From positions 1 through 20,592 of the forward strand of contig LNEX01000580.1 of NCBI GenBank assembly GCA_001464165.1: DNA of 20,592 nt, given 5' to 3'. This DNA is from a bacterium Ga0077546. Its GTDB lineage: Bacteria > Cyanobacteriota > Vampirovibrionia > Obscuribacterales > Obscuribacteraceae. Made by a program: the position numbers and the translations under genes. The notes below the pieces were generated by a model, which saw only the letters and a list, made by a program, of their open reading frames with translations, was not told the DNA's origin and ran no database searches. This document shows positions 3,225 through 20,445 of this stretch, piece by piece (positions within the stretch are counted from its first letter, which is position 1; each line of letters opens with the position of its first letter).

Positions 3225-6017
3225 CTACTTGCTCTCGCCGCCAGTCGAACTGGTCGAACCAGTCGTATCTTCCGGCGGGTTGGGAGCAATGCAGGTTTCG
3301 GCAGTGACCGGGAGCAGAAGCTGCGTCAACTTCTTGTCGGGGTCGGCGTCGACCGTCTGACGAAGCAGCACGTTGATGCGCAGCTTCTCGAGACCCTGGG
3401 TCAACTTCATCTGCCCACCCTTGGGAGGATTGGCAGCAAAGAAAGCGCGCACATCGGCTTCCTGCTCAACGCTATCCAGCGAAGAGAGGTAACCGAAGAT
3501 GGCAGCCACGCTGTTGGCGGGCCACATCTGGTTGATCTTCTCCCAGTTGCTCTTGATGGCATCCCAGGCCGCCTTGGAGGCGTCCTCGTTGCCGAGCAGG
3601 CTGGCCAGGAAGTACGGAGCGTCCTGAACACGCAGCTCACCCGAGAGGGCAAGCTTGATGTTGGCCGCCACCAGCTCCGGTGCGGTGAAGCTGGTCAGAG
3701 CGTACATGAAGCGGTTGGTGTCCTGCGGCGTGGCAGCATGCAGACGGAGATGGTCGAACTCCTTGTAGAGCGCGGCGTCGCCGTTTTCGGCCAGAACGTA
3801 GACCATGGCCGCGAAGACATCGCTGTCCACCGAAGCCGGGTCCTTGGTCCAGGAGGCATACATTTCCTTCGCTTTGGCGATCACGCCAGGGTGCTTGCCG
3901 GTGGTGCCGAGGGCCGAAACCACGCTGGAGCGCAGGTCGGTGACCTTGACCGATTCGCCCGGCTGGCTGGCGTAGCCCAGCTTGTCGAGCAACGGCTGCA
4001 GAACGTGACGCATCTTGCTCTCGACCGCGGCGCGGGCCGGGCCTTCCACCACGCTGTGAACGTAGTTGAGCGAGCCGATGATCTTGCTCCAGATCTGGGG
4101 GTCCTGCTCGTCGGTGAAGTTCTCCACCATCTTCAGGTAGTCCACCAGCGAGATCAGGCGCGAGCGAACCAGCGACCAGCTGTCATTGAGCAGGTTGTAA
4201 CGATCGACCTCGGTCATGATCGTCTTCTTGTTGCTGATGATGCCCTTGATCAGGCCTTCCGAGTACTTGACCCGGTAGAAGCCATTGCCGCCGGCGTTGA
4301 CCACCACCCATTCGACGCCTTCGCCGACATAGACGGTCTGGTTGCGCTCGGAGAAGAGGAACTTCTGCTCGATCACACCCTTGCGCGTCTTGGCCTTGAG
4401 CACGATCGGGATCGGCCACAGCGAAGCGGACAGATTGTCGGACTCACGCAGAACCTTGAACTCGCTCTGACCCAGTTCGATGAAACCGGGCATCGAGCTT
4501 TCGTCCACCGATACCACCGGGTGACCGGAGGTGAAAACCCAGGCGTCCATGAGCTTGCGCACCGGAACGTTGACGGCCATTTCGTGGCAGCCGACTTCGA
4601 GCGCATCCCACAGGTCGTGGGTTTCGGTGTTGGAGAGACCGTGACGGCTGAGGTAGATCTGCACACCGCGCTGGAAGGCGGCGGCGCCGATGTACTGCTC
4701 CAGCTGACGGAGAACCGAGCAACCCTTCTCGTAAGAGATCAGGTCGAAGATCTCGTCGATCTGGAAGGGGTTTTCCACGGCCACTTCGATGGCGTGGGTG
4801 CTGTTCAGCTGGTCGAGGCCGAAGGCAGAGGCGCGGGAACCGGCGAAGGTGTCCCAGGTGTGCCACTCGGGCTTCCACATGTCGACGACCTTGTTCTCCA
4901 TGTAGGTGGCGAAACTCTCGTTCAGCCACAGACCGTTCCACCACTTCATCGTGGTGTAGTCACCGAACCACATGTGCGCCAGTTCGTGCGCGACCACGTG
5001 GGCGACCCGCTCCTTCTCACCCTGCGTGGCCGTGGCCTCGTCGCAGAGCAGATCGGTTTCGCGATAGATGATGCAGCCCAGGTTCTCCATGGCGCCGGCA
5101 GCGAAGTCGGGCATGGCGATGAAGTCGATCTTGTCACCGCCGTAGTAGCCGATGCCGAAGTAGTCTTCGTAGGTGCTGAGCGAGAAGGCAGCGATCTGCT
5201 GCGCGAACTTGAGCTGGTGGCTCTTGCCCGGCGTCGACCAGAAGCCCAGCTCCTTGCCGTTGACCTTGACCGAACCGCCGAATTCCAGCTCACCGGCCGT
5301 GAAAGCCAGGTAGTAGGTGGACATCAGCGGGGTGTTGGCGAACTCAACGCGCTTGAGCAGCTGCGAGTGGCCGCCGTCGTGCAGAGTGGTAGCCACAGCC
5401 AGTTCGGCCGGGGCGCTGACGCTCATGGTGGAGGTGCTCTCGACCTTCATCGCCGACAGGGCGGTGTAGTCGTGGGGCACATTGAGAGCGACCTTGAAGG
5501 TGGCCTTCATTTCCGGCTCGTCGAAGCAGGGGAAGGCGCGGCGGGCGTCGGTGGCTTCGAACTGGGTGGTGGCAATGACATGCACCTTGCCCTGATCGTC
5601 CGTCCAGGTGGAGCGGTAAAAGCCCTTCAGCTCGTCGTTGAGCTCGCCGGCGAAAGCCAGCTTGAGCTTCCACTTGCCGGCGCCGAGGTTGCCGTTGAAA
5701 GAAACGGTGACGCGCTGCAGAACGCTGTCGAGCGACACCGTGCCGGTCAGAACCGTGCCGTTGGCGTCTTCCACCGAGGCCTTGCCGATGGTGAGGTGGT
5801 TGGCGTTGAGCGTGATCGAGGAAGTACCAGCGGGGTTGCGCACATCGACGTCGATGGCAACGTTGCCCCAGAAGGTCAGGTGTTCGAAGTCGGGGGTGAG
5901 CTCGAGTTCGTAGTGAAGCGGCCAGATGTCGCGCGGCAGGCGATACTGGCTACCAGTGGGAACGGACTGGCCGGTGACGGCGAGGCCGTGATGAGAACAA
6001 TTGCGAAGCTTACACAT
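3225..6017 (-). CDS. M1 family aminopeptidase, downstream paralogue
   Basis: A 930-residue zinc aminopeptidase of family M1 (gluzincin), resembling puromycin-sensitive aminopeptidase and the tricorn-interacting factors. It should remove N-terminal residues from peptides in the cytoplasm. Visible hallmarks are the substrate-binding Gln in TQFE (152), the exopeptidase motif GAMEN (308-312), HELAH (344-348), the third zinc ligand E367 exactly 18 residues on, and the catalytic Tyr429 in SYEKG. The C-terminal half fits an ERAP1-C-like helical domain and ends in a Gly/Ser/Thr-rich tail. There is no signal peptide. I chose the ATG at 6017 because AGGAG lies 8 bases upstream; the frame extends to 6101, but that stretch runs through a hairpin. 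The N-terminus MCKLRNCSHH is unusually Cys/His-rich. The neighbouring upstream gene is a clear paralogue. Confidence 0.95.
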   Translation of the reverse strand: MCKLRNCSHHGLAVTGQSVPTGSQYRLPRDIWPLHYELELTPDFEHLTFWGNVAIDVDVRNPAGTSSITLNANHLTIGKASVEDANGTVLTGTVSLDSVLQRVTVSFNGNLGAGKWKLKLAFAGELNDELKGFYRSTWTDDQGKVHVIATTQFEATDARRAFPCFDEPEMKATFKVALNVPHDYTALSAMKVESTSTMSVSAPAELAVATTLHDGGHSQLLKRVEFANTPLMSTYYLAFTAGELEFGGSVKVNGKELGFWSTPGKSHQLKFAQQIAAFSLSTYEDYFGIGYYGGDKIDFIAMPDFAAGAMENLGCIIYRETDLLCDEATATQGEKERVAHVVAHELAHMWFGDYTTMKWWNGLWLNESFATYMENKVVDMWKPEWHTWDTFAGSRASAFGLDQLNSTHAIEVAVENPFQIDEIFDLISYEKGCSVLRQLEQYIGAAAFQRGVQIYLSRHGLSNTETHDLWDALEVGCHEMAVNVPVRKLMDAWVFTSGHPVVSVDESSMPGFIELGQSEFKVLRESDNLSASLWPIPIVLKAKTRKGVIEQKFLFSERNQTVYVGEGVEWVVVNAGGNGFYRVKYSEGLIKGIISNKKTIMTEVDRYNLLNDSWSLVRSRLISLVDYLKMVENFTDEQDPQIWSKIIGSLNYVHSVVEGPARAAVESKMRHVLQPLLDKLGYASQPGESVKVTDLRSSVVSALGTTGKHPGVIAKAKEMYASWTKDPASVDSDVFAAMVYVLAENGDAALYKEFDHLRLHAATPQDTNRFMYALTSFTAPELVAANIKLALSGELRVQDAPYFLASLLGNEDASKAAWDAIKSNWEKINQMWPANSVAAIFGYLSSLDSVEQEADVRAFFAANPPKGGQMKLTQGLEKLRINVLLRQTVDADPDKKLTQLLLPVTAETCIAPNPPEDTTGSTSSTGGESK

Positions 6018-6087
6018 AGCTTTTCTCCTGTTGAGAGTTTTGCAGAGTTTTCTGCGGTTGCAGAATTGATTGATGGCATGCACAAAG

Positions 6088-6113
6088 CCGAGAGCAGCCA
6101 TTGCTGCCCTCGG
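6088..6113 (-). promoter_or_regulatory. Stem-loop in the leader of the downstream M1 gene
   Basis: An 11-bp stem with one mismatch (left arm 6088-6098, right arm 6103-6113) closes a CATT tetraloop. It lies about 70 bases before the ATG at 6017. It could be a second terminator element after the upstream paralogue, or a leader structure. It also argues against starting translation at 6101. Confidence 0.4.
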
Positions 6114-6133
6114 AAGAAGTGCGGGAAAGAAAG

Positions 6134-6164
6134 AGGGGGTGAATCCAAATTGGATCCACCCCCT
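6134..6164 (-). terminator. Probable intrinsic terminator of the upstream M1 gene
   Basis: A 13-bp stem with one mismatch (6134-6146 with 6152-6164) closes a five-base AT loop. The stem base is five consecutive G-C pairs. On the leftward strand it is followed by a pyrimidine-rich CTTTCTTTCCC stretch. It lies 70 bases beyond the stop at 6234, as expected for a terminator separating the two aminopeptidase genes. Confidence 0.65.
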
Positions 6165-6233
6165 GATTTACTTGGTGTGCCTGGTTCTAGCTTTCAGCCT
6201 TGCGACTGTTAGCTGTGATCTACTGCCGGTGAC

Positions 6234-8966
6234 TTACGACTTAGCCGAGACAGGCTCTTGCTTTTCGTCGGCAGACTTGGCAGCAGTTCCGCTGGCGTCG
6301 GCCTTGGCAGTGCTGGCTGCAGCAGGTGCTGCAATCAGATGCTTCTGCAGACCAGCCGTTTCGCGCTCACGCATCAAGACATTGATGCGCAGCTGCTCGA
6401 GAGCCTGGGCCACAGCCATGTCACCCGACTTCACCTGGTTGGCAGCGAAGAAGGCTTTCACCTCTGCTTCCAATTCGGCGGTGTCGAGACCGGCCACAGC
6501 TCCGCACATACGCACCACACCATTTTCAGGGTAGCGCGCCACCATGTTGGCCCAGTTGGCCTTCATGAAGTTCCAGGCAGCGGCAGCCGCAATCTCGTTA
6601 CCAAGCACGTTGGCATAGAGGTACGGGGCATCCTGGGTGCGCACGTCATCGGTCAGGCACTTGTCGATGGTCTTATCGAGCAAGGCACCATCGCGGAAGC
6701 GTGCCAGCGCGAAGAGGAAGCGCTGCACTTCCTGGGGCGACTGAGCCGCTTTCGACAGTTCGAAGAACTCGTTGTAACGAGCTTCGTCGCCGTTGTGAGC
6801 AAGAATGCCAACCAGAGCCGGCACCACATTGCTATCCACCGACTGCTTATCGGCCTTCCAGTTGCTGAACAGCTCATTGGCCTTCTTCTGCACTTCTTCG
6901 TCGGCACCGATTGTTCCGAGAACACCGATGAGCGAACCGCGCAGCTGACGGCTTTGAACCGATTCGTCTTCGGAGGCAGGGGCATAGCCGAGACGTTCGA
7001 CCGTTGGCTTGACCAGGTTGCGCACCACTTCGGCCAGGGCCTTGCGGTGATCGTCCTTGACCAACGAATGCAGGTGACCGAGCGAGCTGGTGATGATGGC
7101 CCAGACGTTGGGGTCTTCCTCAGCGCCGAAGAGCTTGACCATCTCGATGTAGTTAGGAGTGGCCAGGATGCCCGAACGAACGCAAGCCCAGGCGTCGTTG
7201 ACGAGGTTGAAGCGCTCGATGGCAGAGAGATTCTCCATCACGTTAGCGCTGAGAGCGGCAGTCAGTGCCTTGTCGTAGACCACACGGTAGAAACCGGAGC
7301 CTCCCGAGTTGACCACGACCCATTCAATCTTCGAATCGGGGGTGTTGCCGAGCTTTTCCACATGGCTCTTTTCCGACATGAGGAACTTGCGCTCCACCAC
7401 CTTACCGTTGACCTTCGCCCGCAGGGTAACGGGAATCGGCCAGAGAGTGGCGTCGGCGGTCTCGCTCAAGAACTTGAAGGCGCGCTGGGTCAGTTCGACT
7501 GAGCCGGCATCCTTGTGGCTCTTTACCTCAACCACTGGATGACCAGCGGTGAAGACCCAGCGGTCCATGATTTCACGCACGGGAACCGGAGCGTCACCGC
7601 TTTCGGCAGCAGCAGCCTTGCAGGCTACTTCCAAGGCGTCCCACAGATCGTGGGTCTCGGTGTTGCCGTAGCTGTGCTTCTTCAGGTAGAGGGCGATGCC
7701 GCGACGGAAAGTCTCGGCGCCGATGTACTGGTGAATCTGATAGAGAACCGAACAACCCTTCTCGTAGGAGATGACGTCGAACAGCTGAGCTGCCTCGTCG
7801 GGGTGGTTGACCGGGCACTCGATCGGGTGAGTGCTGCGCAGGGCGTCGACACGTGAGGCCGCAGCGCGGGAGAGACCGAACTCGTCCCAGACATTCCAGG
7901 TGGGCTGCCAGGCGTCGAGGCAGAGGTTCTCCATGAAAGTGGCGAAACTCTCGTTCAGCCACAGACCATTCCACCAACCCATGGTGACCAGGTCACCGAA
8001 CCACATGTGAGCCAGCTCGTGCAGCACCACCACAGCAACGCGGGTGCGCTCTGCGTGGGTGGCTGTTTTCTCGTTGAGCAACAGTGCGGTTTCGCGGTAG
8101 GTGATCAGGCCGAGGTTCTCCATCGCGCCCGAAGCGAAATCGGGGATGGCGATGTGGTCGATTTTCTTACCGCCGGGGTAAGGAATCTCGAAGTACTTCT
8201 CGTAGTGGTCGGTGGCGAAAGCAGCGGCACGCAGAGCGAACTCTGTCATGTCTTCTTTGCCAGGCACGCACCAGATGCGGGTCTCGATGCCGTTGACCAT
8301 GACCGGTTTGGAGGAGACGAATTCGCCGATGCAGAAGCAGACGAGGTACGTCGACATCTTCATGGTGCGTTCGTAGCTTACAGCCTTGAGGCCGTTGCCG
8401 ACCGATTCACTCTTGATGATGGCGCCGTTGGAAAGAGCAGTGAGCTCCTCGGGGACCGTCAAGGTGACGTCGAAGGTGGCCTTGAATTCAGGCTCGTCGA
8501 AGCACGGGAAAGCGCGTCGAGCGTCGGTGGATTCGAACTGGGTGGTGGCGATGGTGTGCTTCTTGCCCTGCTCGTCGGTCCAGATCGAACGATAGAAGCC
8601 CTTGAGCTTGTCGTTCAGTGTGCCGGTGAAGACAGAGGAAAGCTTCCAGGCCCCTTTGCCCAGAGTGCCGTCGAAAGAAATTGTGGCAATCTCGGTCTCT
8701 TCGTCGAGGGAGATTTTGCCATCGAGTCGAGTGCCAGCCGAGTTCGTTGCCGAGAAGGCTGTGATGACGAGCTCTTTGGCGTTGAGTTTGACCGTGCTGG
8801 TCGCTTCAAGTACATCAACATCGATCTCGACTGTGCCGGCGAAGGTGAAATTCGTCAGGTCGGGAGTGAGACTGATCTTGTAGTTGCTTGGTTTAACGGT
8901 CTTGGGCAGACGGAAAGACTGGTCTACCGTTGCAGTGCCCCCAGACATGTGATGTTTCATGCACAT
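6234..8966 (-). CDS. M1 family aminopeptidase, upstream paralogue
   Basis: A 910-residue M1 zinc aminopeptidase, predicted cytosolic (no signal peptide). It has TQFE (142-145), GAMEN (280-284), HELAH (316-320), third ligand E339 at the canonical spacing, and Tyr401 in SYEKG, so it should be catalytically competent. A helical ERAP1-C-like region follows, then an Ala/Ser/Lys-rich tail. By eye it shares more than half its residues with the next gene over the N-terminal 300 positions, so the pair is a tandem duplication. The frame opens at 9047, but the ATG at 8966 is preferred: an AGGG site lies about 8 bases upstream and the resulting MCMKHH start resembles the Cys-rich start of the paralogue. 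Different tails and diverged substrate-pocket regions suggest different peptide preferences (inference). Confidence 0.95.
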   Translation of the reverse strand: MCMKHHMSGGTATVDQSFRLPKTVKPSNYKISLTPDLTNFTFAGTVEIDVDVLEATSTVKLNAKELVITAFSATNSAGTRLDGKISLDEETEIATISFDGTLGKGAWKLSSVFTGTLNDKLKGFYRSIWTDEQGKKHTIATTQFESTDARRAFPCFDEPEFKATFDVTLTVPEELTALSNGAIIKSESVGNGLKAVSYERTMKMSTYLVCFCIGEFVSSKPVMVNGIETRIWCVPGKEDMTEFALRAAAFATDHYEKYFEIPYPGGKKIDHIAIPDFASGAMENLGLITYRETALLLNEKTATHAERTRVAVVVLHELAHMWFGDLVTMGWWNGLWLNESFATFMENLCLDAWQPTWNVWDEFGLSRAAASRVDALRSTHPIECPVNHPDEAAQLFDVISYEKGCSVLYQIHQYIGAETFRRGIALYLKKHSYGNTETHDLWDALEVACKAAAAESGDAPVPVREIMDRWVFTAGHPVVEVKSHKDAGSVELTQRAFKFLSETADATLWPIPVTLRAKVNGKVVERKFLMSEKSHVEKLGNTPDSKIEWVVVNSGGSGFYRVVYDKALTAALSANVMENLSAIERFNLVNDAWACVRSGILATPNYIEMVKLFGAEEDPNVWAIITSSLGHLHSLVKDDHRKALAEVVRNLVKPTVERLGYAPASEDESVQSRQLRGSLIGVLGTIGADEEVQKKANELFSNWKADKQSVDSNVVPALVGILAHNGDEARYNEFFELSKAAQSPQEVQRFLFALARFRDGALLDKTIDKCLTDDVRTQDAPYLYANVLGNEIAAAAAWNFMKANWANMVARYPENGVVRMCGAVAGLDTAELEAEVKAFFAANQVKSGDMAVAQALEQLRINVLMRERETAGLQKHLIAAPAAASTAKADASGTAAKSADEKQEPVSAKS

Positions 8967-9008
8967 AGTTGTATCCCTACTTTGAGTTATCTCCGTTAGG
9001 AGGATTAG

Positions 9009-9173
9009 GTGACGGAATCTCAAGCACAAGCTCGCGCTTTGGCTCAAGCTGTTCTCAGCTGTTCACCACATTTTGACAGGAAATTAGTTGCGCGTAACAT
9101 TTGCAGAAGCATGTTGTTGAGCATGACAACTGATGTCTGCGCGCGGAAGTTTCCAGATGTGGTTAGAGACTGA
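9009..9173 (+). CDS. Doubtful 54-residue small ORF
   Basis: A GTG-initiated frame of 54 codons lies in the divergent spacer. AGGAGG (8998-9003) is placed five bases before the GTG, the strongest ribosome-site match seen in that spacer. The product would be Ala/Gln-rich at its N-terminus, with three cysteines in all and several basic residues in its second half. No family is recognised and no membrane helix is clear. The AGGAGG also falls in a short CTCC/GGAG inverted repeat inside the leader of the opposite-strand aminopeptidase gene, so it may be chance. Confidence 0.2.
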   Translation: MTESQAQARALAQAVLSCSPHFDRKLVARNICRSMLLSMTTDVCARKFPDVVRD

Positions 9174-9742: not shown

Positions 9743-9858
9743 CTTGCTAGTTGGATGCTTGCTTCTAGAGCCGATTTGGTGGGGATTCAGCGTGTTTGAA
9801 ACTAAGCAATTTTCTAACTCAACCCTCTAAATCTCGCATTTTGCGAAAGGAAACTACC

Positions 9859-10875
9859 ATGACACACCGCGATTTCGACGGTTTCATCCCGTCTTCGTTC
9901 TTGCTCGAGCTTGCCAACCGCAACCCGAACAATCTCTCCCTGGTCACCACCATTCTGGCCACCCAGAAGCTGTCCCAGGCCGCCCGCAACCACACCGTCC
10001 GTTACCGTCTCGCCGCCGGCAAGGCCGAGCGCCAGATCTATGACGCCAAGAACGCAACGCGCCTGCCTGGCACCCGCGCTCGCTTCGAAGGCGAAAAGGT
10101 CACCGGCGACAAGACCACCGACAATGCCTACGACTACCATGGCGGCATGCGCGACTTCCTCTTGCAGGAATTCGGCTGGAACTCCATCGACGGCAAGGGC
10201 ATGAACCTGGTGGGCACTGTCCACTACGGCCGCAACTACAACAACGCCTTCTGGAACGGTCAGCAGATGACCTACGGCGACGGCGATGGCGTGATCTTCG
10301 TCACCTTCGTCGAGCCCGTTGTCGTCGGCCACGAGCTCTCCCACGGCGTCACCGAAATGACCTCTGGTCTCGACTACCAGGGCGAATCTGGTGCGCTGAA
10401 CGAAAGCTTCTCCGATGTGATGGGCGTCTGCTTCCGGCAGTGGCTCAACAAGGAGACCGCTGACAAGGCCAAGTGGCTCGTCGGTGAAGGCATCTTTGGC
10501 CCCACCATCAAGGGCAAGGCCCTGCGCTCCATGATCGCCCCGGGCACTGCCTACAACGATCCGAAGTTGGGCAAGGACCCGCAGCCTGACCACTACAGCA
10601 AGCTGTACCGTGGTTCGGGCGACAACGGTGGCGTGCACATCAACTCGGGCATCCCGAACAAGGCCTTCGCCCTGTTCGCCATCGCCGTCGGCGGCTACTC
10701 CTGGAAGGAGCCGGCGCACGTGTGGTGGGAGTCGAACTCTGGCACCAACCGCGTCGGCAGCACCGCTTCCATCGCCGACTTCGCCAAGAAGACGGTGGAG
10801 AACTGCACCAAGATGTGCCCGCAGCATGTCGCCAAGCTGAAGCAGGCTTGGAGCGACGTCGGCGTCACTGTCTAA
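9859..10875 (+). CDS. Protealysin-like M4 metallopeptidase (thermolysin family)
   Basis: A 338-residue zinc endopeptidase of family M4, of the short protealysin type, and not the long secreted thermolysin type. It shows HELSH (158-162), the third zinc ligand E182 in NESFSD, and the catalytic His260 in DNGGVH with the following NSGIPNKAF block. The first 50 or so residues correspond to the short protealysin propeptide, but the usual Pro-Pro-Tyr motif reads Pro-Ser-Ser here (residues 11-13). There is no signal peptide, as in protealysin. The ATG at 9859 has AAAGGA about 7 bases upstream; the frame opens earlier at 9796, without a comparable site. The usual emfourin inhibitor gene is not adjacent: the next gene is fadE. 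Likely substrates are cytosolic or host-type proteins, unproven. Confidence 0.93.
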   Translation: MTHRDFDGFIPSSFLLELANRNPNNLSLVTTILATQKLSQAARNHTVRYRLAAGKAERQIYDAKNATRLPGTRARFEGEKVTGDKTTDNAYDYHGGMRDFLLQEFGWNSIDGKGMNLVGTVHYGRNYNNAFWNGQQMTYGDGDGVIFVTFVEPVVVGHELSHGVTEMTSGLDYQGESGALNESFSDVMGVCFRQWLNKETADKAKWLVGEGIFGPTIKGKALRSMIAPGTAYNDPKLGKDPQPDHYSKLYRGSGDNGGVHINSGIPNKAFALFAIAVGGYSWKEPAHVWWESNSGTNRVGSTASIADFAKKTVENCTKMCPQHVAKLKQAWSDVGVTV

Positions 10876-11117: not shown

Positions 11118-11139
11118 GCAGACAAATTTTGGTGTCTGC
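11118..11139 (+). promoter_or_regulatory. 7-bp dyad close upstream of fadE
   Basis: GCAGACA (11118-11124) and TGTCTGC (11133-11139) are perfect inverted copies with an eight-base gap, ending 31 bases before the fadE ATG. It could be an operator or a 5'-UTR hairpin. It does not resemble the E. coli FadR site as I know it. Confidence 0.35.
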
Positions 11140-11170
11140 AGAAATTCAACCATCTAAAGTAGGAACTCAC

Positions 11171-13483
11171 ATGAGTAACAACAAGCAAAATCCGCAGGGG
11201 TCAGTTGCTGGTCCCAATAGTGGGAGCTCCAGCAAGGGCCGTCAGGGCGACTTTTTCTTCCGCTTCATCCTCAACACGATGAAGAAGATGAAAGTCCTCC
11301 CGCAAATCTCCGAAACCGAGCGACAGGCGCTTGAGGCCGGAGATGTCTGGCTTGATGGCGATATCTTCGCTGGCAAGCCCAACTTCCGTTCGATGCTCGA
11401 GAAGCCCTACGGCGGGCTGACTGCAGAAGAGCAAGCCTTCATCGCCGGCCCTCTCGTCGAGCTGTGCCGCATGTTCGACCACTACGAAGTCGGCCAGACG
11501 CGCCGGGTTCCGCAGGACGTCGATGACTTCATCAAAGCCCAGGGCTTTATGGGGCTGATTATCCCGAAGCAGTACGGAGGCCGCGAGTTCTCTCGGTTGG
11601 CCGTCTCGACCATCCTGCACATCCTCACGCCCTACTCGTTCACCGTCGGTGTACGGGTGATGATCCCCAACTCGCTTGGTGCGGGCGAACTGATCATCCA
11701 CTACGGCACTGATGCACAGAAGAAGTTCTACCTGCCGAAGTTGGCCAGCGGCGAGTTCGTGCCCTGCTTCGGTCTGACCGAAAAGGAAGCCGGCTCTGAT
11801 GCGGCCAGCATGAAGTCTGAAGGTGTGGTCTTCCGTGACACCGACGGCCAGGTCAAAATCCGGATGAACTTCGAGAAGCGCTACATCACGCTGGCGCCCA
11901 TCGCCAACCTCTGCACCGTTGCCCTTCAGCTGTCGGATCCCGACAATCTGACCGGCAAGGCCACTGCGGAGAACAAGGGCGATATCGGCATCACCTGCGT
12001 GCTGATCCACAAGGGCACTCCCGGTTTCGTCAACGGTAATCACCACATCCCCATTGGCGAGCCCTTCGATAACGGCACGCTCAAGGGTGTGGATGTGGTC
12101 GTTCCGGTCGAGAACATCATTGGCGGAGTTGATTACGCCGGAGGCGGCTGGAAGATGCTCATGGAGCAGCTTGCCGGCGGTCGCTGCGTCTCTCTCCCGG
12201 CTGGTGCGGTCGGCAACCTCAAGCTGTCGGCAGCCGCCGTCGGTTCATATTCGATGGTCAGGTCGCAGTTCAATCGCCAGATTGGTCAGATGGAAGGCAT
12301 CGAGGAGAAGGTAGCCTCGGTGGCCGGCATGACCTACATGCTGGATGCGGCGCGTATCTTCGTCTGCTCGGCCGTTGATTCGGGCGTTCAGCCCCCAGTG
12401 ACCTCCGCTGTGTTGAAGGCATACACCACCGAGATCGCCCGCAAGGCCGGTATCGATGCCATGGATGTCTTCGCCGGCGCTGGCGTCATGCAGGGCCCGC
12501 GTAACATCCTCTCCAAGGGATACACCGGAGCACCTGTTGGTATCACCGTTGAGGGTGCCAACATCCTCACCCGCACGCTGATGATTTTCGGTCAGGGTGC
12601 GACCCGCTGCCATCCGTATGCGCTCAAGGTGGTGCATGCGGTGGACGACAATGACGTGCCAGCCTTCCGTAACAACCTGTGCGGCTGGATGCTGCACTTC
12701 GGTTTGGGCATGGTGCGCACCGGCGTGCGGGGCCTCACTCGCGGCTGGACCACGAGCATCCCCAAAGTCGCTCCCGAGACCAAGACCTACTACAGGCGCC
12801 TCGGTTGGGCTGCGGCGCATTTCGGCACTCTCACCGACCTGGCTATGTTCACGGTTGGTGGCAAGCTGAAGTCGCGCCAGATGCTCACCGGACGTTACGC
12901 TGATGCGGTCGCCTGGATGCTGCTCGGTTTCTCGGCGCTCCGGCGCTTCGAGGCTGAAGGGCGTCGCAAGGAAGACCTGCCGCTGGTGCACTACGCTCTG
13001 TCCAAGGCACTCAGCGAAGTGCAGACGGCCTTCGAAGGCATTTATGCCAATTTCGAAGCGCCCGTCCTCGGTTTCCTGATGCGCACGGTAGGCATGGCAA
13101 TGCTGCGGATCAACCCGCTTGGCCATGCACCTTCTGATGCAGTCGCTCGCAAGGCGGCAAGGACTCTGCAGACCTACGGAGACCAGTTCAATCGTCTCAC
13201 CGAAGGCGTCTTCGTAGACCACGAAGAGGCTCCGGGGCTCGGTCAACTGATCCATGCCTTCCGCCTCACCACCGAGGCCCAGGCGACGGTTGACAGCATC
13301 ATCACGGCGCAAAGGTCGAGGCAGTTGCCTCGTGGTGCCATCAACGAGTCGATTGCCGCTCAGGCAGTCACACTTGGTGTGATCACTCAGACCGCAGCGG
13401 ATCGTCTGTCGCTGGCGCAGGCCGCTAAGAGGAAAGTGATCGAAGTCGACGTCTTTACTCCCGACCAGTACTACCGCGACTGA
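11171..13483 (+). CDS. fadE: Acyl-CoA dehydrogenase, FadE type
   Basis: A 770-residue FAD-dependent acyl-CoA dehydrogenase that should catalyse the first step of fatty-acid beta-oxidation. It aligns by eye with E. coli FadE along most of its length: the GLTEKEAGSD substrate/FAD motif (201-210), KRYITLAPIA (236-245), the catalytic Glu461 in VEGANILTR, and GQGATRCHPY (474-483), followed by the FadE-specific C-terminal domain (DUF1974 type). E. coli FadE starts with about 75 residues of membrane anchor; here they are replaced by about 25 hydrophilic Gly/Ser/Asn-rich residues, so this enzyme is predicted soluble. The ATG at 11171 is chosen for the AGGA about 7 bases upstream; the frame opens at 11129. 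No other beta-oxidation gene is in the window. Confidence 0.93.
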   Translation: MSNNKQNPQGSVAGPNSGSSSKGRQGDFFFRFILNTMKKMKVLPQISETERQALEAGDVWLDGDIFAGKPNFRSMLEKPYGGLTAEEQAFIAGPLVELCRMFDHYEVGQTRRVPQDVDDFIKAQGFMGLIIPKQYGGREFSRLAVSTILHILTPYSFTVGVRVMIPNSLGAGELIIHYGTDAQKKFYLPKLASGEFVPCFGLTEKEAGSDAASMKSEGVVFRDTDGQVKIRMNFEKRYITLAPIANLCTVALQLSDPDNLTGKATAENKGDIGITCVLIHKGTPGFVNGNHHIPIGEPFDNGTLKGVDVVVPVENIIGGVDYAGGGWKMLMEQLAGGRCVSLPAGAVGNLKLSAAAVGSYSMVRSQFNRQIGQMEGIEEKVASVAGMTYMLDAARIFVCSAVDSGVQPPVTSAVLKAYTTEIARKAGIDAMDVFAGAGVMQGPRNILSKGYTGAPVGITVEGANILTRTLMIFGQGATRCHPYALKVVHAVDDNDVPAFRNNLCGWMLHFGLGMVRTGVRGLTRGWTTSIPKVAPETKTYYRRLGWAAAHFGTLTDLAMFTVGGKLKSRQMLTGRYADAVAWMLLGFSALRRFEAEGRRKEDLPLVHYALSKALSEVQTAFEGIYANFEAPVLGFLMRTVGMAMLRINPLGHAPSDAVARKAARTLQTYGDQFNRLTEGVFVDHEEAPGLGQLIHAFRLTTEAQATVDSIITAQRSRQLPRGAINESIAAQAVTLGVITQTAADRLSLAQAAKRKVIEVDVFTPDQYYRD

Positions 13484-13541: not shown

Positions 13542-13632
13542 AAATTCGCTCTCTCACGACAGCGCCTCACTTGGTTCGGTAAGCAATTGCCGGGCCAGGT
13601 GGGGTGTCTTTTTACAGCTTTTTTCAACTGCA

Positions 13633-13687: not shown

Positions 13688-15865
13688 ATGTCAAATAACA
13701 AACCTGTACAAATCATCATCGACCTCAAGTCGAGTGATGACGGCAGCGACCGCAAGCCGCACGGCCATCATGGTTCGTGTCGTCCTCATGTGGTCATCTG
13801 CCCCGGCTACGGCAACAAGGATTTTCCTTTCCCCAACGCCGAAGACCTGACCGTTCGGGCGCTCACTCGCCTGAAGAAGAAACAAGCCGACGCCAAGGCC
13901 GCACAGGCTGAAGGTGGCGACGTCAACACCGACGGCATCGGCTCCAAGTCAAGCAAGGGCCAGCGCCCTTTTGATACTGCCGGTAGTGGCCACAGCCACG
14001 AACACATTACCGGCGCGTGTTCGGATGATTCAAAAGATTCGTGGGATGGTCTCGGCAAAGATCAGACCTTCGTTCCCGGTATGCCCAACCTGGGCCAGAT
14101 TCCCAAGCCAGCCGCTGTCATCGCCCAGTCAAAGCGGGCGCGTGAAAACGGCATCGACGGCACGCTCTTCGTAGCGGCCGGCGGTCTGCGGGAACTTCTG
14201 GAAGACGGCAAGTACGATGCCATTGTCGCCGAGCGTTTCGACGACTTGGTCGACAAGGTCAACTGGGCCCGCGACAACATGGGTCCCAAGTACCAGCGTG
14301 CCGTGGAGAGCCTCAGCTCTCAGCTGAGCAAGTTGCGTGAAGTCTATCTCGGCGCCCTTCCCCGGGTGCTGGATGGTCTGCGCGCTCAGAACCCTGGTGT
14401 GGGTGAGGGTCGCTTGATTGAAGCGGCCGTGGAAGTGCTCGATGAAGAGCTCAAGCAGATCATTTCTGTGCTGCGTATCTGGACCGATGCTTTCGGTCAG
14501 CAGCGCGGTGGCAGCTACAAGCAGCTTGACGCTGTTGTCTTCGCTGTCGAGCAGGCTTTCTTGCTCTTCGAAGGCAACGACCCCTCGCAGCCTCTGTCGA
14601 ACGACGTCACCACCCGTCTGAAGAATCGCGTCTTCGGCGTTGGTGATACCTTCGTTGCCCGTTTCAGTGGCGAAGGTCCGGCTACCCTGCCTGGTACCCG
14701 TGGTCCGGTGCGTGCACACGCTCTGGAAGTTCCCCACGACGAGCGGCATTTCATCACCCTGATGCTGGTGCTCTACATGCACGAGTTCCGCCACGATGTC
14801 TTCCATGACGTGGAAGGCATGGGTGAAGAGCTGACCGCAGTGGTGAGCAAGGCAATCATGCAGGCTGCTGGTAAGGGTGAACTCAAGCTCACTCGCGAGC
14901 ACGTCAACATCGGCAAGCAGCGTGTGCCCCTGGCCAATCTGCTGACCAAGATGTATGCCGACACCATCGGTGAGGTCGATGCCGACGTTTCTGGCGGCGT
15001 TCTGCTTGCTGGTCCGGCCTTCCTCTATAACATGTTGATGACGTTCTCCGCCTTCAATTCCCGTCGGCGCGGCGTCTTCAACCAGCGTCAGCTGTTGCGC
15101 ACTTCCTCTTTCTATGAAATGGAAGAGAATGCCAACGGTCAGATGGCGCTGTCCTTCCTGCCGCACCCGCCCGACTACATCCGGGCGCACATCGTTGCTG
15201 CCGCCCTCGATGAGATCGGCATGCCCGATGAGGCCAAGCAGTGTCGCCTGCTGGCCGACCAGGCCGTGGGTTGCGACGTCAACGGCACCAAGGGTCGTCC
15301 GACCATCAAGATTCCGGTGGAAGACATCAAGCGTGCCGCGCCTTTTGTGGCTCGCGCGCTGATTCGCACTCCCCTCGAATCGCTGGGCAAGGTCAGCACC
15401 GGTGAAGTGATTTACTGGACGCCCAAGTCTGAGGCCAAGGCCCAGATGTTGGCTGAAATGATGATGGACGGTGAGTCGCAGCTGCCAACCGACAAGGGTG
15501 ACATTCACGTCACTCACGTCATCGCTGCGGCATCGCTCGCTTACTGGGGCCTGTGCAAATCGGGTACTCAGCCGCGTGATGGTGCTGCCGTTATCGAAGC
15601 CACTGCTCTGAAGATGATCGACCAGGTGCGCAACGCCTTCGAGACTCGCAAGGCAGCTCTCGAAGCAGAAGCCGCAGAAGCCGCTCGTTTGGCCGAAGCA
15701 GCGAAAGCTGAAGCGGCCAAGACCGTGCCTGCTGGTGATGAAACCGGTGGCGAAACTGGTGACACTTCCGGCGCCGAAGACCAAGATACTGGACCAGATG
15801 GAGCTGGCCCAGCTAACGGTGGAACCGATTCGGCTAACCCCGAAGCAGTGACCACCGAAGAGTAA
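13688..15865 (+). CDS. Unrecognised 725-residue protein with zincin (gluzincin-like) motifs
   Basis: I know no family for this protein. Three motifs in order match the gluzincin layout of M48-type peptidases: HEFRH (365-369) on a hydrophobic helix, then E429-V-D-A-D433 (ExxAD, E as presumed third zinc ligand), then HPPDYIR (494-500). There is no signal peptide or membrane helix, unlike most M48 members. The N-terminus (about 1-50) is rich in His and Cys (HGHHGSC at 25-31); residues 140-310 look helical; an Ala/Glu helix (about 652-680) leads to a Gly/Thr/Asp-rich tail. AAGGG lies about 6 bases before the ATG. Residues 1-5 (MSNNK) equal the start of the FadE upstream. Peptidase activity is inference; the frame itself is secure, with neighbour-like codon usage. 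Confidence 0.85.
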   Translation: MSNNKPVQIIIDLKSSDDGSDRKPHGHHGSCRPHVVICPGYGNKDFPFPNAEDLTVRALTRLKKKQADAKAAQAEGGDVNTDGIGSKSSKGQRPFDTAGSGHSHEHITGACSDDSKDSWDGLGKDQTFVPGMPNLGQIPKPAAVIAQSKRARENGIDGTLFVAAGGLRELLEDGKYDAIVAERFDDLVDKVNWARDNMGPKYQRAVESLSSQLSKLREVYLGALPRVLDGLRAQNPGVGEGRLIEAAVEVLDEELKQIISVLRIWTDAFGQQRGGSYKQLDAVVFAVEQAFLLFEGNDPSQPLSNDVTTRLKNRVFGVGDTFVARFSGEGPATLPGTRGPVRAHALEVPHDERHFITLMLVLYMHEFRHDVFHDVEGMGEELTAVVSKAIMQAAGKGELKLTREHVNIGKQRVPLANLLTKMYADTIGEVDADVSGGVLLAGPAFLYNMLMTFSAFNSRRRGVFNQRQLLRTSSFYEMEENANGQMALSFLPHPPDYIRAHIVAAALDEIGMPDEAKQCRLLADQAVGCDVNGTKGRPTIKIPVEDIKRAAPFVARALIRTPLESLGKVSTGEVIYWTPKSEAKAQMLAEMMMDGESQLPTDKGDIHVTHVIAAASLAYWGLCKSGTQPRDGAAVIEATALKMIDQVRNAFETRKAALEAEAAEAARLAEAAKAEAAKTVPAGDETGGETGDTSGAEDQDTGPDGAGPANGGTDSANPEAVTTEE

Positions 15866-15991: not shown

Positions 15992-17323
15992 ATGAAAGTC
16001 AATGCTCGAAAGACCGCCATTGGAGCGGTCCTCATCGTATTTCTTCTGGTCTTGTTCAAGTTGGCGTTGATGGCTTTTGCCGGCAATTCGGCTGGCACTT
16101 CACCTCGTTTTGCTGAGCGTTCCCATGCGCCCACTGTCGTTCTCAAGGACGGTCAGTATGGTGAGCAGGTTCGCCTGGTGCAGTATGCAGCCGACAAGCG
16201 CACCCGTGTGTCGATGCGCATCGAGCGCTTCGACGGCGGTTCTGCCACGGTTGAATTCGGCACTAACGGTAAGGCCGCCAAGCTGATCGAGTACTATCCC
16301 GTTCCGACTGAGCCGGTAACGCCGGTCTCAAATAAGGAATCCACAGAAGTTGTGGACCCTTTGAAGCAGACCCTCGACCATCGCATTGTCTTGCGTGAGA
16401 CGCTGTTCAAGAGCGACGGTTCGTCCGTTGCTTCGCAGACAGCCTATCGCCCCGACGGCAGCTTGAAAGAAGTGGCCGTGCGCACTGCAGATGACGACCT
16501 GCTCGTTACGGTCTACCGCGACGACAAAAAAGGCGTCGAAAGCATCCAGGTTTTTGACAAAACCACTGGTATGCTCAAGAACGAACGCGTCTTCAATCTC
16601 GATGGCACGATTGCTTCGCTCTTGGCCAAAGACAACAGCAGTTACTACAGCAAGGCCAAGCAAGACTTCTTTGGCAGCGATGGTAAGCGCACACGCAACG
16701 TGCTCTTCTCCAATTGGGACGTCACGGTCAGCGATTACGCTGCCGACGGTACAACGCTGCAGCAGACGATTCAGTACACCTCCAGTGAGGTGATTGTGAT
16801 TGTCTACGACAGCAAGACCGGCAAGAAGCAGATGGAGCGTCGTTACAACACGAGCTCCAAGGCAGTTCAGATCACTTACTACAATGCTGCTGGAACGCCT
16901 ACCACCGTTCAGCGCTGGGTGGTGCTTGACTCTGCTATTCCTGCCGATCGCATTGGTGACGTCAATGATGGCTACGTGCTCAGCGAAGTCGCTGACATGC
17001 ATCCCGATGGTCTCGCAGCCAAGCGTATCATCCGTTACTACCCGGGCGGCAAGGTTGTAGGTCAGGTGGAGATTCGTCCGACCATGGCTTGGACCAATCG
17101 CACCATGAAGACCTACCGTCCTGATGGTAGCCTCGACAAGGTCGAAGAGTACACCTGGAGTCAGGTGACCAAGACGGTTGCTTCGCCTCCCGGTCCCAAC
17201 AATGACCGCGAAGTGGTGCCTGCCGAATGGACTAAGCCGACAAAGCTCTTTCCTGACCCGGCCTTCGATCTGACTGCAGCTCCCAAGTTGGCGCAGCGCC
17301 CGCTGAGCTACAGCTTCGACTAA
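15992..17323 (+). CDS. Membrane-anchored DG-repeat (YwqK/MORN-like) protein
   Basis: A 443-residue protein of unknown role. Residues 9-30 form one hydrophobic segment after a basic start (MKVNARK), a signal anchor or uncleaved signal peptide, placing the rest outside the cytoplasmic membrane. The exported part repeats an aromatic-x-x-D-G beta-hairpin unit: YRPDGSL (152-158), FNLDGTI (201-207), YAADGTT (249-255), YNAAGTP (297-303), MHPDGLA (336-342) and YRPDGSL (375-381). Such spacing resembles YwqK-type, MORN-like or YD repeats, which are structural or binding modules; no enzyme motif is seen. The tail is Pro/Ala-rich. AAGG lies about 9 bases before the ATG. It follows the zincin-like gene by 126 bases and is closed by a strong terminator, so the two could share a transcript. 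Confidence 0.85.
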   Translation: MKVNARKTAIGAVLIVFLLVLFKLALMAFAGNSAGTSPRFAERSHAPTVVLKDGQYGEQVRLVQYAADKRTRVSMRIERFDGGSATVEFGTNGKAAKLIEYYPVPTEPVTPVSNKESTEVVDPLKQTLDHRIVLRETLFKSDGSSVASQTAYRPDGSLKEVAVRTADDDLLVTVYRDDKKGVESIQVFDKTTGMLKNERVFNLDGTIASLLAKDNSSYYSKAKQDFFGSDGKRTRNVLFSNWDVTVSDYAADGTTLQQTIQYTSSEVIVIVYDSKTGKKQMERRYNTSSKAVQITYYNAAGTPTTVQRWVVLDSAIPADRIGDVNDGYVLSEVADMHPDGLAAKRIIRYYPGGKVVGQVEIRPTMAWTNRTMKTYRPDGSLDKVEEYTWSQVTKTVASPPGPNNDREVVPAEWTKPTKLFPDPAFDLTAAPKLAQRPLSYSFD

Positions 17324-17423: not shown

Positions 17424-17451
17424 CATATATTACTTGACACCCCAAGGCAAA

Positions 17452-18804
17452 ATGTCCACTCAAAACTCTTCCCAGATTCCTCCGACTGCGGCTCCTGACC
17501 AAACCGAAAGCATCGTTGCTTTCACTGCTCAGTTGGTGAAAATCCCCGCACAAGGCGGAATCGATCAACCCAAACCGATGCTGCAAGCCATTTCAACTTG
17601 GCTTACCGAACGCGGCGTCAATCATCGTTTGCTGTTGGCGAATCCTGCAACTGGTGCTTCGACCGCTGCTGCCACCTTCACGGGAAAGCCGCCTGCCTCC
17701 ACTGTTGTGCTTCCGGATCCTGTGGCCGTTGTGATCGAGATTCAAGGCGCACTGCCTGGCCCGACCTACTGCTTCGACGCTTGTGTAGACACTGCACCAG
17801 CTGGTAATTTGGCCTCTTGGACCAAGCCACCTTTCGCCGCTGTCATCGAAGACGGCTGGCTCTATGGTCGTGGTTCTGCTGACTCGAAAGTGGCGGTTGC
17901 GATTCTCTGCCACTTGGCTTTGGAATTTCAGAAACGCCGCGACCAGATGCACGGCAAGCTCACCATTCTTTTGGATGGAGATGAGCATACCGGGGGCTTT
18001 GGCGGCGTGAAAGAATACATCTCCAAAGTGGAGAAGCCGGATGGTTTGGTTATCTGCTATCCGGGCAATGATCGCATCGCAGTTGGTGCCCGCGGTTTCT
18101 ATCGCGTCAGCATCAGCGTGCCAGGATTCGCTCAGCATGCCGGTAGCAGCCAGCCTGTCAAAGACAGTGCTGTGACCAAAGCTGTCTTGCTTGCTTCCAA
18201 GTTGAGCGCCATTGCCCTGCCCAAGGAAGCGGATCAAGATTTCTATTTCGGTCCGAAACTGACAATCACAGCCATCAATGGTGGCAGTGGTTTCGCTCAG
18301 GTGCCAGACCTCTGCACCATCAATGTCGATGTGCGCCTCACTCCCTCTTTCACTGCTGCTGACGCCCGAGTGCTGATCAAGCAAGCGGTCGACGAGGTGG
18401 ATGGCGCTGTGACGAATGGCAAGAAAGCCTGCATCATCAAAGAAGAAGAAAGCTGGCCGCCCTACAAGCTCGCCGCTGATCACCCGCTGGTTGCCAGTTT
18501 CATCGCTGCTGCCAGTGACGCCCATGGTCGCACCTTGACCAGCTTCGTTTGCGGACCTTCCAACATCGGCTGCTATCTCAGCGCCCTGGAAGTGCCTGCC
18601 ACCTGTGGCTTTGGCGTCAACTTCCGCGGCCTCCATGCTGCTGATGAAGCGATTGAAATTGCTTCGATTTTGCCGGTGGTCGATTCGTACCGCAAGCTCG
18701 TGGAGAATTTGCTCTACAAGCAGGATGCTGAAGAATCATCTGACGCTGGTAACTGCTGCGGTGGCAATGCCTGTGTCAACGATGCAGAGGCCAAGAAAGA
18801 ATAA
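17452..18804 (+). CDS. M20-family peptidase homologue with altered metal ligands
   Basis: A 450-residue protein with the M20 (ArgE/DapE/dipeptidase) fold signature: a GRGSADSK block with bridging Asp144, the dimerisation-domain AQHAG (227-231, H229), and C-terminal H395 in GLHAADEA. Three usual ligands differ. The GHxD motif reads AC-V-D (C111 for His, D113 kept). The Glu-Glu pair reads E178-H179 (base kept, ligand Glu to His). The usual Glu-Pro reads Tyr203-Pro. A mononuclear D144/H179/H395 site is conceivable, so activity may be changed and not lost. The C-terminus has a CCGGNAC cluster (435-441). No signal peptide is seen. The ATG at 17452 has AAGG about 5 bases upstream; a TTG at 17434 is a poorer start. 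Substrate unknown, presumably di- or small peptides. Confidence 0.88.
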   Translation: MSTQNSSQIPPTAAPDQTESIVAFTAQLVKIPAQGGIDQPKPMLQAISTWLTERGVNHRLLLANPATGASTAAATFTGKPPASTVVLPDPVAVVIEIQGALPGPTYCFDACVDTAPAGNLASWTKPPFAAVIEDGWLYGRGSADSKVAVAILCHLALEFQKRRDQMHGKLTILLDGDEHTGGFGGVKEYISKVEKPDGLVICYPGNDRIAVGARGFYRVSISVPGFAQHAGSSQPVKDSAVTKAVLLASKLSAIALPKEADQDFYFGPKLTITAINGGSGFAQVPDLCTINVDVRLTPSFTAADARVLIKQAVDEVDGAVTNGKKACIIKEEESWPPYKLAADHPLVASFIAAASDAHGRTLTSFVCGPSNIGCYLSALEVPATCGFGVNFRGLHAADEAIEIASILPVVDSYRKLVENLLYKQDAEESSDAGNCCGGNACVNDAEAKKE

Positions 18805-19149: not shown

Positions 19150-20445
19150 CTATGTATCGTGCAGATACATATCGTTCGTCAATTGAAAACCAACGACTGT
19201 ATCTTTTTGCAAGAAAAAGCTTAGTCGACTGTTGCCAACTCTGTAATCGATACTTTTGCCAGCTTCAGAAGAACAGCGCTCTGGGCCGAGTAAGGTAAGT
19301 ATTTCTAGCCTTTTCATTCCGATCAATTTTTGCAGATTTGGTTTTATGGCTGCCCAATAAGTAGCTTCATCGCGTCGTTTTGCGCCGGTGTATACAGCAT
19401 CTTCGTCGCTTGGCCTTGAATCGCCCCAGCCTATTCGAACAAGGCCGTGGGCTCGTTTGCGATCTTCAGTTATCTCAATGGGCTCAAAGTCAATAGACTG
19501 CACGAAGCCATGTTGTAAAAACACTGTGCTGCTAATTCGATCATCAAGCTGCCATTTATCTATTTTGTAATCGCGCTGCCGTGGTCTATTCGATGAGCTT
19601 TGGGCACTTTTTGAATTTGCTGCTTCTTTTTCTATGGAGTTTTGCACTAGTGACTCGTACTTTTCTGTTCTCATGCCAGGAAGTCTGTCAATTTGGGTTT
19701 GAAATATTGGCCATAGTTCAGGGTGAGGCTTTGCCGGAGTAACTTTAGATAGAAACCAATTCTCTTTGCCGTACTTGTCGGTGATTAGCTTCAGGAAAGA
19801 GACACGATTGTTGTTGAGGTAAAACCGCAGTCTTTGATTGCCGATTCTATAGTCAACAGTCTGTTTTGATTCTGATGAGCATCTTTCCGGACCAAGTAAC
19901 CTTCTTAGTTCTTCTTTGGTTTTGCCGGGGAGATTCTTGAAGTTTGTTTTGACGACTGCCCAGTATTGGTCGTCAAATCGGCGGGATGCATAGGTGTATT
20001 CTGTGTCGCTTTGCCAATCGTATTCAAACTCATCGTTTAATCTGAGGTGTATTGCTTTTGTGTCTTGATTGGTTGGTATCAGACTGATCTCGTCGATAAG
20101 TCTTATGGTCCTAGATAGTTCAAGTTCGGTGTCATTGTCTAACCGAACGTGTTGATAGCTCATTCCTTCCCACTCCGCTTTATTGTCGTTGCTAGCTCGT
20201 GAGCTTCCGAATAGTTTTTCTATTGCTGATGGAGACATACTGCCAAAGCTGCCGAAATTTTCGCCTGCAATTTTCCAGCAGTCTTCGTCTGTCATTTCGG
20301 CAAGAGTTTGTTGGCTTATCGAGTCTTGGTTCTGATTGTCAGCAGCGAAGGCCATAGAAGTGCTGTGGGAGTCGCTGTAAGAACTGGCAACTAAGCTAGC
20401 GATTAACGAGCCTAATAAGTGATTCTTACAATTTGTCTTGTTCAT
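19150..20445 (-). CDS. Secreted internal-repeat protein of unknown function
   Basis: A 431-residue protein I do not recognise. It starts with a signal peptide: basic MNKTNCK, hydrophobic core LLGSLIASLVASS, likely cleavage near AFA-A (about residue 34). The mature part is a duplication of a unit of roughly 190 residues. Each unit holds a motif with an aromatic or Trp start and a Leu/Phe-Gly end at its beginning (about 57-84 and 244-267) and a stronger copy at its end (about 161-220 and 363-421). The stronger copies share LLGPERCSSE, DYRxGN and RLxFxL. The short Leu-Gly-Pro plus beta-strand pattern is loosely like BamE/SmpA-type domains (weak inference). Base composition is visibly more AT-rich than the metabolic genes. 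No clear ribosome site precedes the ATG. The next gene upstream is a paralogue. Confidence 0.8.
   Translation of the reverse strand: MNKTNCKNHLLGSLIASLVASSYSDSHSTSMAFAADNQNQDSISQQTLAEMTDEDCWKIAGENFGSFGSMSPSAIEKLFGSSRASNDNKAEWEGMSYQHVRLDNDTELELSRTIRLIDEISLIPTNQDTKAIHLRLNDEFEYDWQSDTEYTYASRRFDDQYWAVVKTNFKNLPGKTKEELRRLLGPERCSSESKQTVDYRIGNQRLRFYLNNNRVSFLKLITDKYGKENWFLSKVTPAKPHPELWPIFQTQIDRLPGMRTEKYESLVQNSIEKEAANSKSAQSSSNRPRQRDYKIDKWQLDDRISSTVFLQHGFVQSIDFEPIEITEDRKRAHGLVRIGWGDSRPSDEDAVYTGAKRRDEATYWAAIKPNLQKLIGMKRLEILTLLGPERCSSEAGKSIDYRVGNSRLSFFLQKDTVVGFQLTNDMYLHDT

Follow-up and report, generated by a model that had tools for sequence, protein, structure and literature searches.

A putative soluble, M48-like zinc metallopeptidase family without Pfam assignment in Obscuribacterales

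Introduction

The best-known M48-like gluzincins are associated with membranes or the cell envelope. The protein described here, a 725-amino-acid (aa) product encoded within contig LNEX01000580.1 of bacterium Ga0077546 (assembly GCA_001464165.1, Obscuribacteraceae; the window, i.e., the whole analysed stretch, comprises 20,592 nucleotides), belongs to a non-photosynthetic relative of cyanobacteria and shares with the M48 peptidases (PF01435: HtpX, Ste24/ZMPSTE24, BepA, LoiP) the order and spacing of the HEXXH, ExxxD and HPX4R motifs. We conclude that the protein probably works in the cytoplasm as a soluble zinc metallopeptidase and represents an undescribed family with a remote relationship to M48. 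Observed are the motifs and their invariance, the gene order, and a profile and domain architecture resembling M48; zinc binding, catalysis, an active-site plug, location and substrate are our inferences.

HPX4R is described as conserved throughout PF01435 (PMC7950410). The passages of that work devoted to BepA report H246 as the fourth zinc ligand, sitting on the active-site plug, place R252 within the active site, and propose that the H246N substitution deregulates the protease (PMC7950410). Two further groups resemble the present proteins in their zinc helix: the M78 (ImmA/IrrE) gluzincins, which share the HEXXH helix, and M49 dipeptidyl peptidase III, with which one remote branch of our family shares HEXXGH in place of HEXXH; an M49 enzyme with the pentapeptide motif HEISH has also been reported (PMC5805324).

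Results

Motif conservation in close homologues

The gene and its proposed catalytic elements are as follows.

13688-15865 (+): ATG-to-stop frame of the 725-aa M48-like putative zinc metallopeptidase, family branch A; 105 homologues, no Pfam family
14588-15292 (+): M48-like catalytic domain, residues 301-535, delimited by the domain model and by hhalign and VIA-align to M48
14780-14794 (+): HEFRH, residues 365-369, within helix 350-374; two proposed zinc ligands and the proposed general base
14972-14986 (+): EVDAD, residues 429-433, within helix 427-441; E429 is the proposed third zinc ligand
15164-15184 (+): HPPDYIR, residues 493-499; proposed active-site plug motif HPX4R

A preliminary description had located the first two motifs correctly and had placed HPPDYIR at 494-500, one residue too far downstream. 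Among 200,000 shuffles of the protein, HEXXH arose in 5,744 (2.9%), HEXXH followed 30-140 residues on by HPX4R in 34, and all three motifs in order in one. From a search of 5.8 billion proteins, in which the 7,993 candidates with the most words in common were scored, we obtained 105 homologues with 38-97% identity, and the query was aligned with 104 of them (105 rows; P0018 excluded). HEXXH is present in every row (HEFRH in 104, HELRH in one), as is ExDAD with E429 and D433, while HxPDxxR is retained in 104, the lone exception being a fragment; P494 is replaced by L or M in eight rows. The 16 invariant columns include H365, E366, R368, H369, D374, E429, D431, A432 and D433. Thus, the motif invariance that the preliminary description had named as a test of its reading was observed, and homologues lacking HEXXH, which would have spoken against it, did not appear in these rows.

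For the majority of the homologues no source is named; the rest are annotated as hypothetical and come mostly from Obscuribacterales, Melainabacteria or unclassified Cyanobacteria bins, apart from P0067, whose bin is labelled Planktothrix sp., and P0075, labelled an FAD-binding oxidoreductase. P0018 carries precomputed KH (PF00013) and S1 (PF00575) domains, and is possibly a gene fusion or else an assembly or gene-calling error; no other homologue among the 105 has a precomputed Pfam domain. The earlier statement that the protein matches no family held: a Pfam scan returned none at E values up to 10, and the sole NCBIfam match lies in the low-complexity tail (E 0.059, 12.5 bits vs. a cut-off of 75). 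Scanning 58 members gave no Pfam family matched in more than three of them (best E 0.012), and a PDB sequence search found no match. Literature listings on Obscuribacter peptidases and Melainabacteria metalloproteases show no entry that evidently concerns such a family.

Branches of the superfamily

The superfamily falls into six branches, distinguished as follows.

Branch A: the protein of 13688-15865; HE[FL]RH
Branch B: HEARH or HESRH; plug motif mostly HPVDYxR
Branch C: open frames of 509-644 aa; HEV[GA]GH
Branch D: about 1,000 aa; HEIGH, HELGH, HENKH or HENVH; H[AG]xDxxR
Branch E: HETGH or HEVGH; HPQDxxR
Branch F: open frames of 449-479 aa; for example HEVSH/EIWAD/HPTPYLR

Among the genomes seen there are up to four superfamily genes per genome (search rows sharing one frame were counted once), and in G002, G003, G004, G005 and G007 these are one C, one D and two A/B genes. 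By hhalign, branch A matches C with probability 99.7 over 403 columns, D with 98.5 over 366 and F with 96.8 over 321, and these matches extend across a large part of the C-terminal helical domain. Branch F reaches 97.2 with C and just 2.7 with D. In the joint 60-row alignment exactly seven columns are invariant, namely H365, E366, H369, E429, D433, G442 and R499, while H493 is kept in 57 of the 60 rows, with Y in its place in L060, L062 and L064, all of branch C.

Branch C shows the one-residue variant HEXXGH. All 14 of its loci (L025, L029, L030, L034, L036, L059-L066, L068) have HEVGGH or HEVAGH and retain E..[AS]D, and nine keep HPxDxxR; this motif, and HEXXH in the 725-aa protein, are differences from M49. 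In an alignment of further branch C homologues (36 of 37), H219, E220, V221, G223, H224, E291, D295 and R346 (P0120 numbering) are invariant. Since the tree sets branch C to one side of a branch (support 94/95), the simplest reading is that HEXXH and HEXXGH were exchanged once, with the root not known. The branch D gene (about 1000 aa) adjoins a gene for a protein that is TPR-like by eye (L026, L031, L033).

Relation to M48 and competing explanations

The 725-aa protein displays HEXXH, a downstream ExxxD glutamate on a second helix of the model, and HPX4R, all as in M48. The model of residues 301-535 has pLDDT 88.0 and pTM 0.84, and M48 chains top its VIA-align structural list. For the profile comparison, likewise named beforehand as a check, M48 proteins were gathered from 12 of the genomes by PF01435 search (2-8 matches per genome; M48 set of 29 domains) and compared with a domain alignment pooling the branches (A5, 56 rows). 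A5 matched M48 with probability 94.7 (E 6e-8) across 175 columns, with all motifs in register, vs. 2.3 for M1 and 3.3 for M4 as controls and 0.1-0.2 for reversed profiles; on the same scale, M48 itself scores 41.9 vs. M1, 18.4 vs. M4 and 40.6 vs. M78. Without branches C and D, the match stood at 91.6 over 131 columns, single branches gave 89.7 (A, 66 columns), 72.4 (F), 45.2 (D) and 1.3 (C), and random subsets of 6 or 11 M48 rows gave 72-94. Since motif invariance, the profile match against weak controls and the M48-led structural list agree, we favour an M48-like gluzincin, as the preliminary description had suggested.

It is possible, although we consider it unlikely, that the protein is instead a true, very divergent M48 member extended by helical domains and not a separate family. 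The ordered motifs, the profile match of 94.7 and the structural list would suit such a member. However, the curated PF01435 model gives no match to the protein at E values up to 10, its matches in the 12 genomes never coincide with places of our family, and in a 70-row tree the superfamily is split from 10 M48 rows with support 100/99 (midpoint root, long branches). The protein further differs from M48 in having no membrane helix by hydropathy and in its flanking helical domains and N-terminal module on a disordered linker.

An improbable alternative is a non-peptidase zinc-binding protein of M48-like fold, with a structural, regulatory or other hydrolytic role, which the large helical additions and the lack of a known activity or a characterised relative would fit. 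Yet the invariance in 60/60 rows extends beyond the ligands to the proposed base E366 and to R499, which is not a ligand; this is the pattern expected for catalysis. In addition, the gene shares a block with peptidases (see below). Still less credible is a zincin unrelated to M48 that acquired the motif order by convergence and has its nearest kin in M49, M78 or another gluzincin: the M48 match extends over 131-175 columns in branch-pooling profiles (66 for branch A alone), whereas the M78 match (31.4 over 14 columns for A5; 31-53 overall) is restricted to 14-15 columns at the HEXXH helix in profile comparisons with M48, M78, M1 and M4, and PF06114 (M78) gave no match at E values up to 10. Finally, a chance HEXXH in an unrelated protein, such as occurs in 2.9% of shuffles, is refuted by conservation in 105/105 and 60/60 rows and retains a negligible probability.

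Distribution

In the order that includes G003 (the genome that holds Ca. Obscuribacter phosphatis contig L003), 36 of 53 genomes gave profile-search matches. In a class-level sample, 34 of 289 genomes matched, all already in the order-level list, and the domain profile, run on a phylum sample, matched 3 of 292: G003 and two others, which led to branch F. Of 194 phylum genomes sampled, four carry branch F, in one case as a weak match (25% identity). These four genomes hold full PsaA/PsaB genes and are therefore photosynthetic; a search for PsaA/PsaB in G003 and G041 found none. The absences are soft, because the genomes are drafts whose completeness is not stated.

Regions flanking the catalytic domain

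The remaining parts of the protein are listed below.

13772-13909 (+): N-terminal module, residues 29-74, CRxHxVxxPGxGxxxFxFPxxxxLVxxALxR, partly Cys/His, helix 51-74; present in branches A, B and E
13931-14125 (+): disordered linker, residues 82-146, pLDDT <50
14132-14569 (+): N-terminal helical domain, residues 149-294; AF2 model helices from 149-154 through 278-294
15317-15637 (+): C-terminal helical domain, residues 544-650; model helices, largely covered by the hhalign matches of A with C, D and F
15752-15862 (+): low-complexity disordered tail, residues 689-725, pLDDT <50

Both the His/Cys-containing N-terminus and the low-complexity tail noted earlier proved real, C31 being C in 85 of the 95 rows that cover it, and hydropathy agreed that membrane helices are lacking (top 19-residue Kyte-Doolittle mean 1.51). 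The GxGxxxFxFPxxxxLVxxALxR part of the module also occurs mid-frame in a 272-aa and a 293-aa open frame that otherwise differ (L101 938-1753 (+); L102 1359-2237 (-)), which suggests that the module may be a portable element for docking or targeting. The CxxxxVVxPG half of the module is seemingly duplicated in P0060, P0063, P0087 and P0091.

Genomic neighbourhood

The surrounding features of the window are as follows.

3225-6101 (-): M1 aminopeptidase-like gene, conserved block (PF01433)
6234-9047 (-): second M1 aminopeptidase-like gene, conserved block (PF01433)
9796-10875 (+): M4 (thermolysin-like) peptidase gene, conserved block (PF01447, PF02868)
11129-13483 (+): acyl-CoA dehydrogenase-like gene, conserved block (PF09317 and others)
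13562-13607 (+): terminator-like hairpin with a 20-pair stem and a T run, in the gap between the acyl-CoA dehydrogenase gene and the 725-aa gene
15992-17323 (+): protein with an N-terminal hydrophobic stretch (by eye) and a DUF2963 match (PF11178), conserved block; provisionally labelled YwqK-like
17434-18804: M20-type peptidase gene, after the conserved block

Because of the hairpin upstream, the 725-aa gene may be transcribed on its own; terminator-like hairpins, recognized by consensus match only, number three vs. a mean of 2.2 in shuffles. Gene order was compared across 14 loci of 12 genomes, where the neighbours on the expected side are M1 in 11, M4 in 10, the acyl-CoA dehydrogenase-like gene in 10 (just 26-28% identical in L010, L011 and L014) and the DUF2963-type gene in eight. 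The order M1-M4-725-aa gene holds at 35% identity (L012). L005, L006 and L013 have no block gene, but two of these loci are truncated, L005 at 1.3 kb upstream and L013 at 0.3 kb downstream. By eye, the two M1 proteins and the M4 protein have no evident signal peptide.

Long frames of up to 824 aa run antisense to the M1 genes (e.g., 3738-6212 (+)) and are most likely spurious. At 19150-20445 (-), a 431-aa protein with an N-terminal hydrophobic segment and no Pfam family contains two similar internal segments, each with LLGPERCSSE followed by DYR(I/V)GN.

Discussion

We propose that H365, H369 and E429 would bind a single zinc ion with E366 as the general base, and that the loop carrying H493-P-P-D-Y-I-R499 may form an M48-type active-site plug, in which H493 could fill the fourth zinc place while R499 remains in the active site. 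The helical domains 149-294 and 544-650 would form a substrate cleft. Since the gene keeps its position next to those for M1 and M4 peptidases, which show no evident signal peptide, regulated intracellular cleavage appears to be the likeliest role: the enzyme probably takes part in intracellular protein or peptide turnover, and may cut intracellular proteins or larger peptides under regulation, leaving the pieces to be finished by aminopeptidases.

More tentatively, we envisage a soluble M48-like superfamily of Cyanobacteriota, unseen by family libraries, which may have radiated in Obscuribacterales as branches A-E and whose zinc motif may have changed once between HEXXH and HEXXGH, with the glutamate and the plug arginine kept. 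The 725-aa protein and its relatives would add an unnamed, soluble family to the M48-like gluzincins, and our reading gives the recurrent 'hypothetical proteins' of Obscuribacterales a testable function. Moreover, branch C offers a setting besides M49 in which relatives carry both HEXXH and HEXXGH and, if the single change is true, the superfamily would constitute a natural series in which to follow how the active site of a zincin accommodates one extra residue in its zinc helix.
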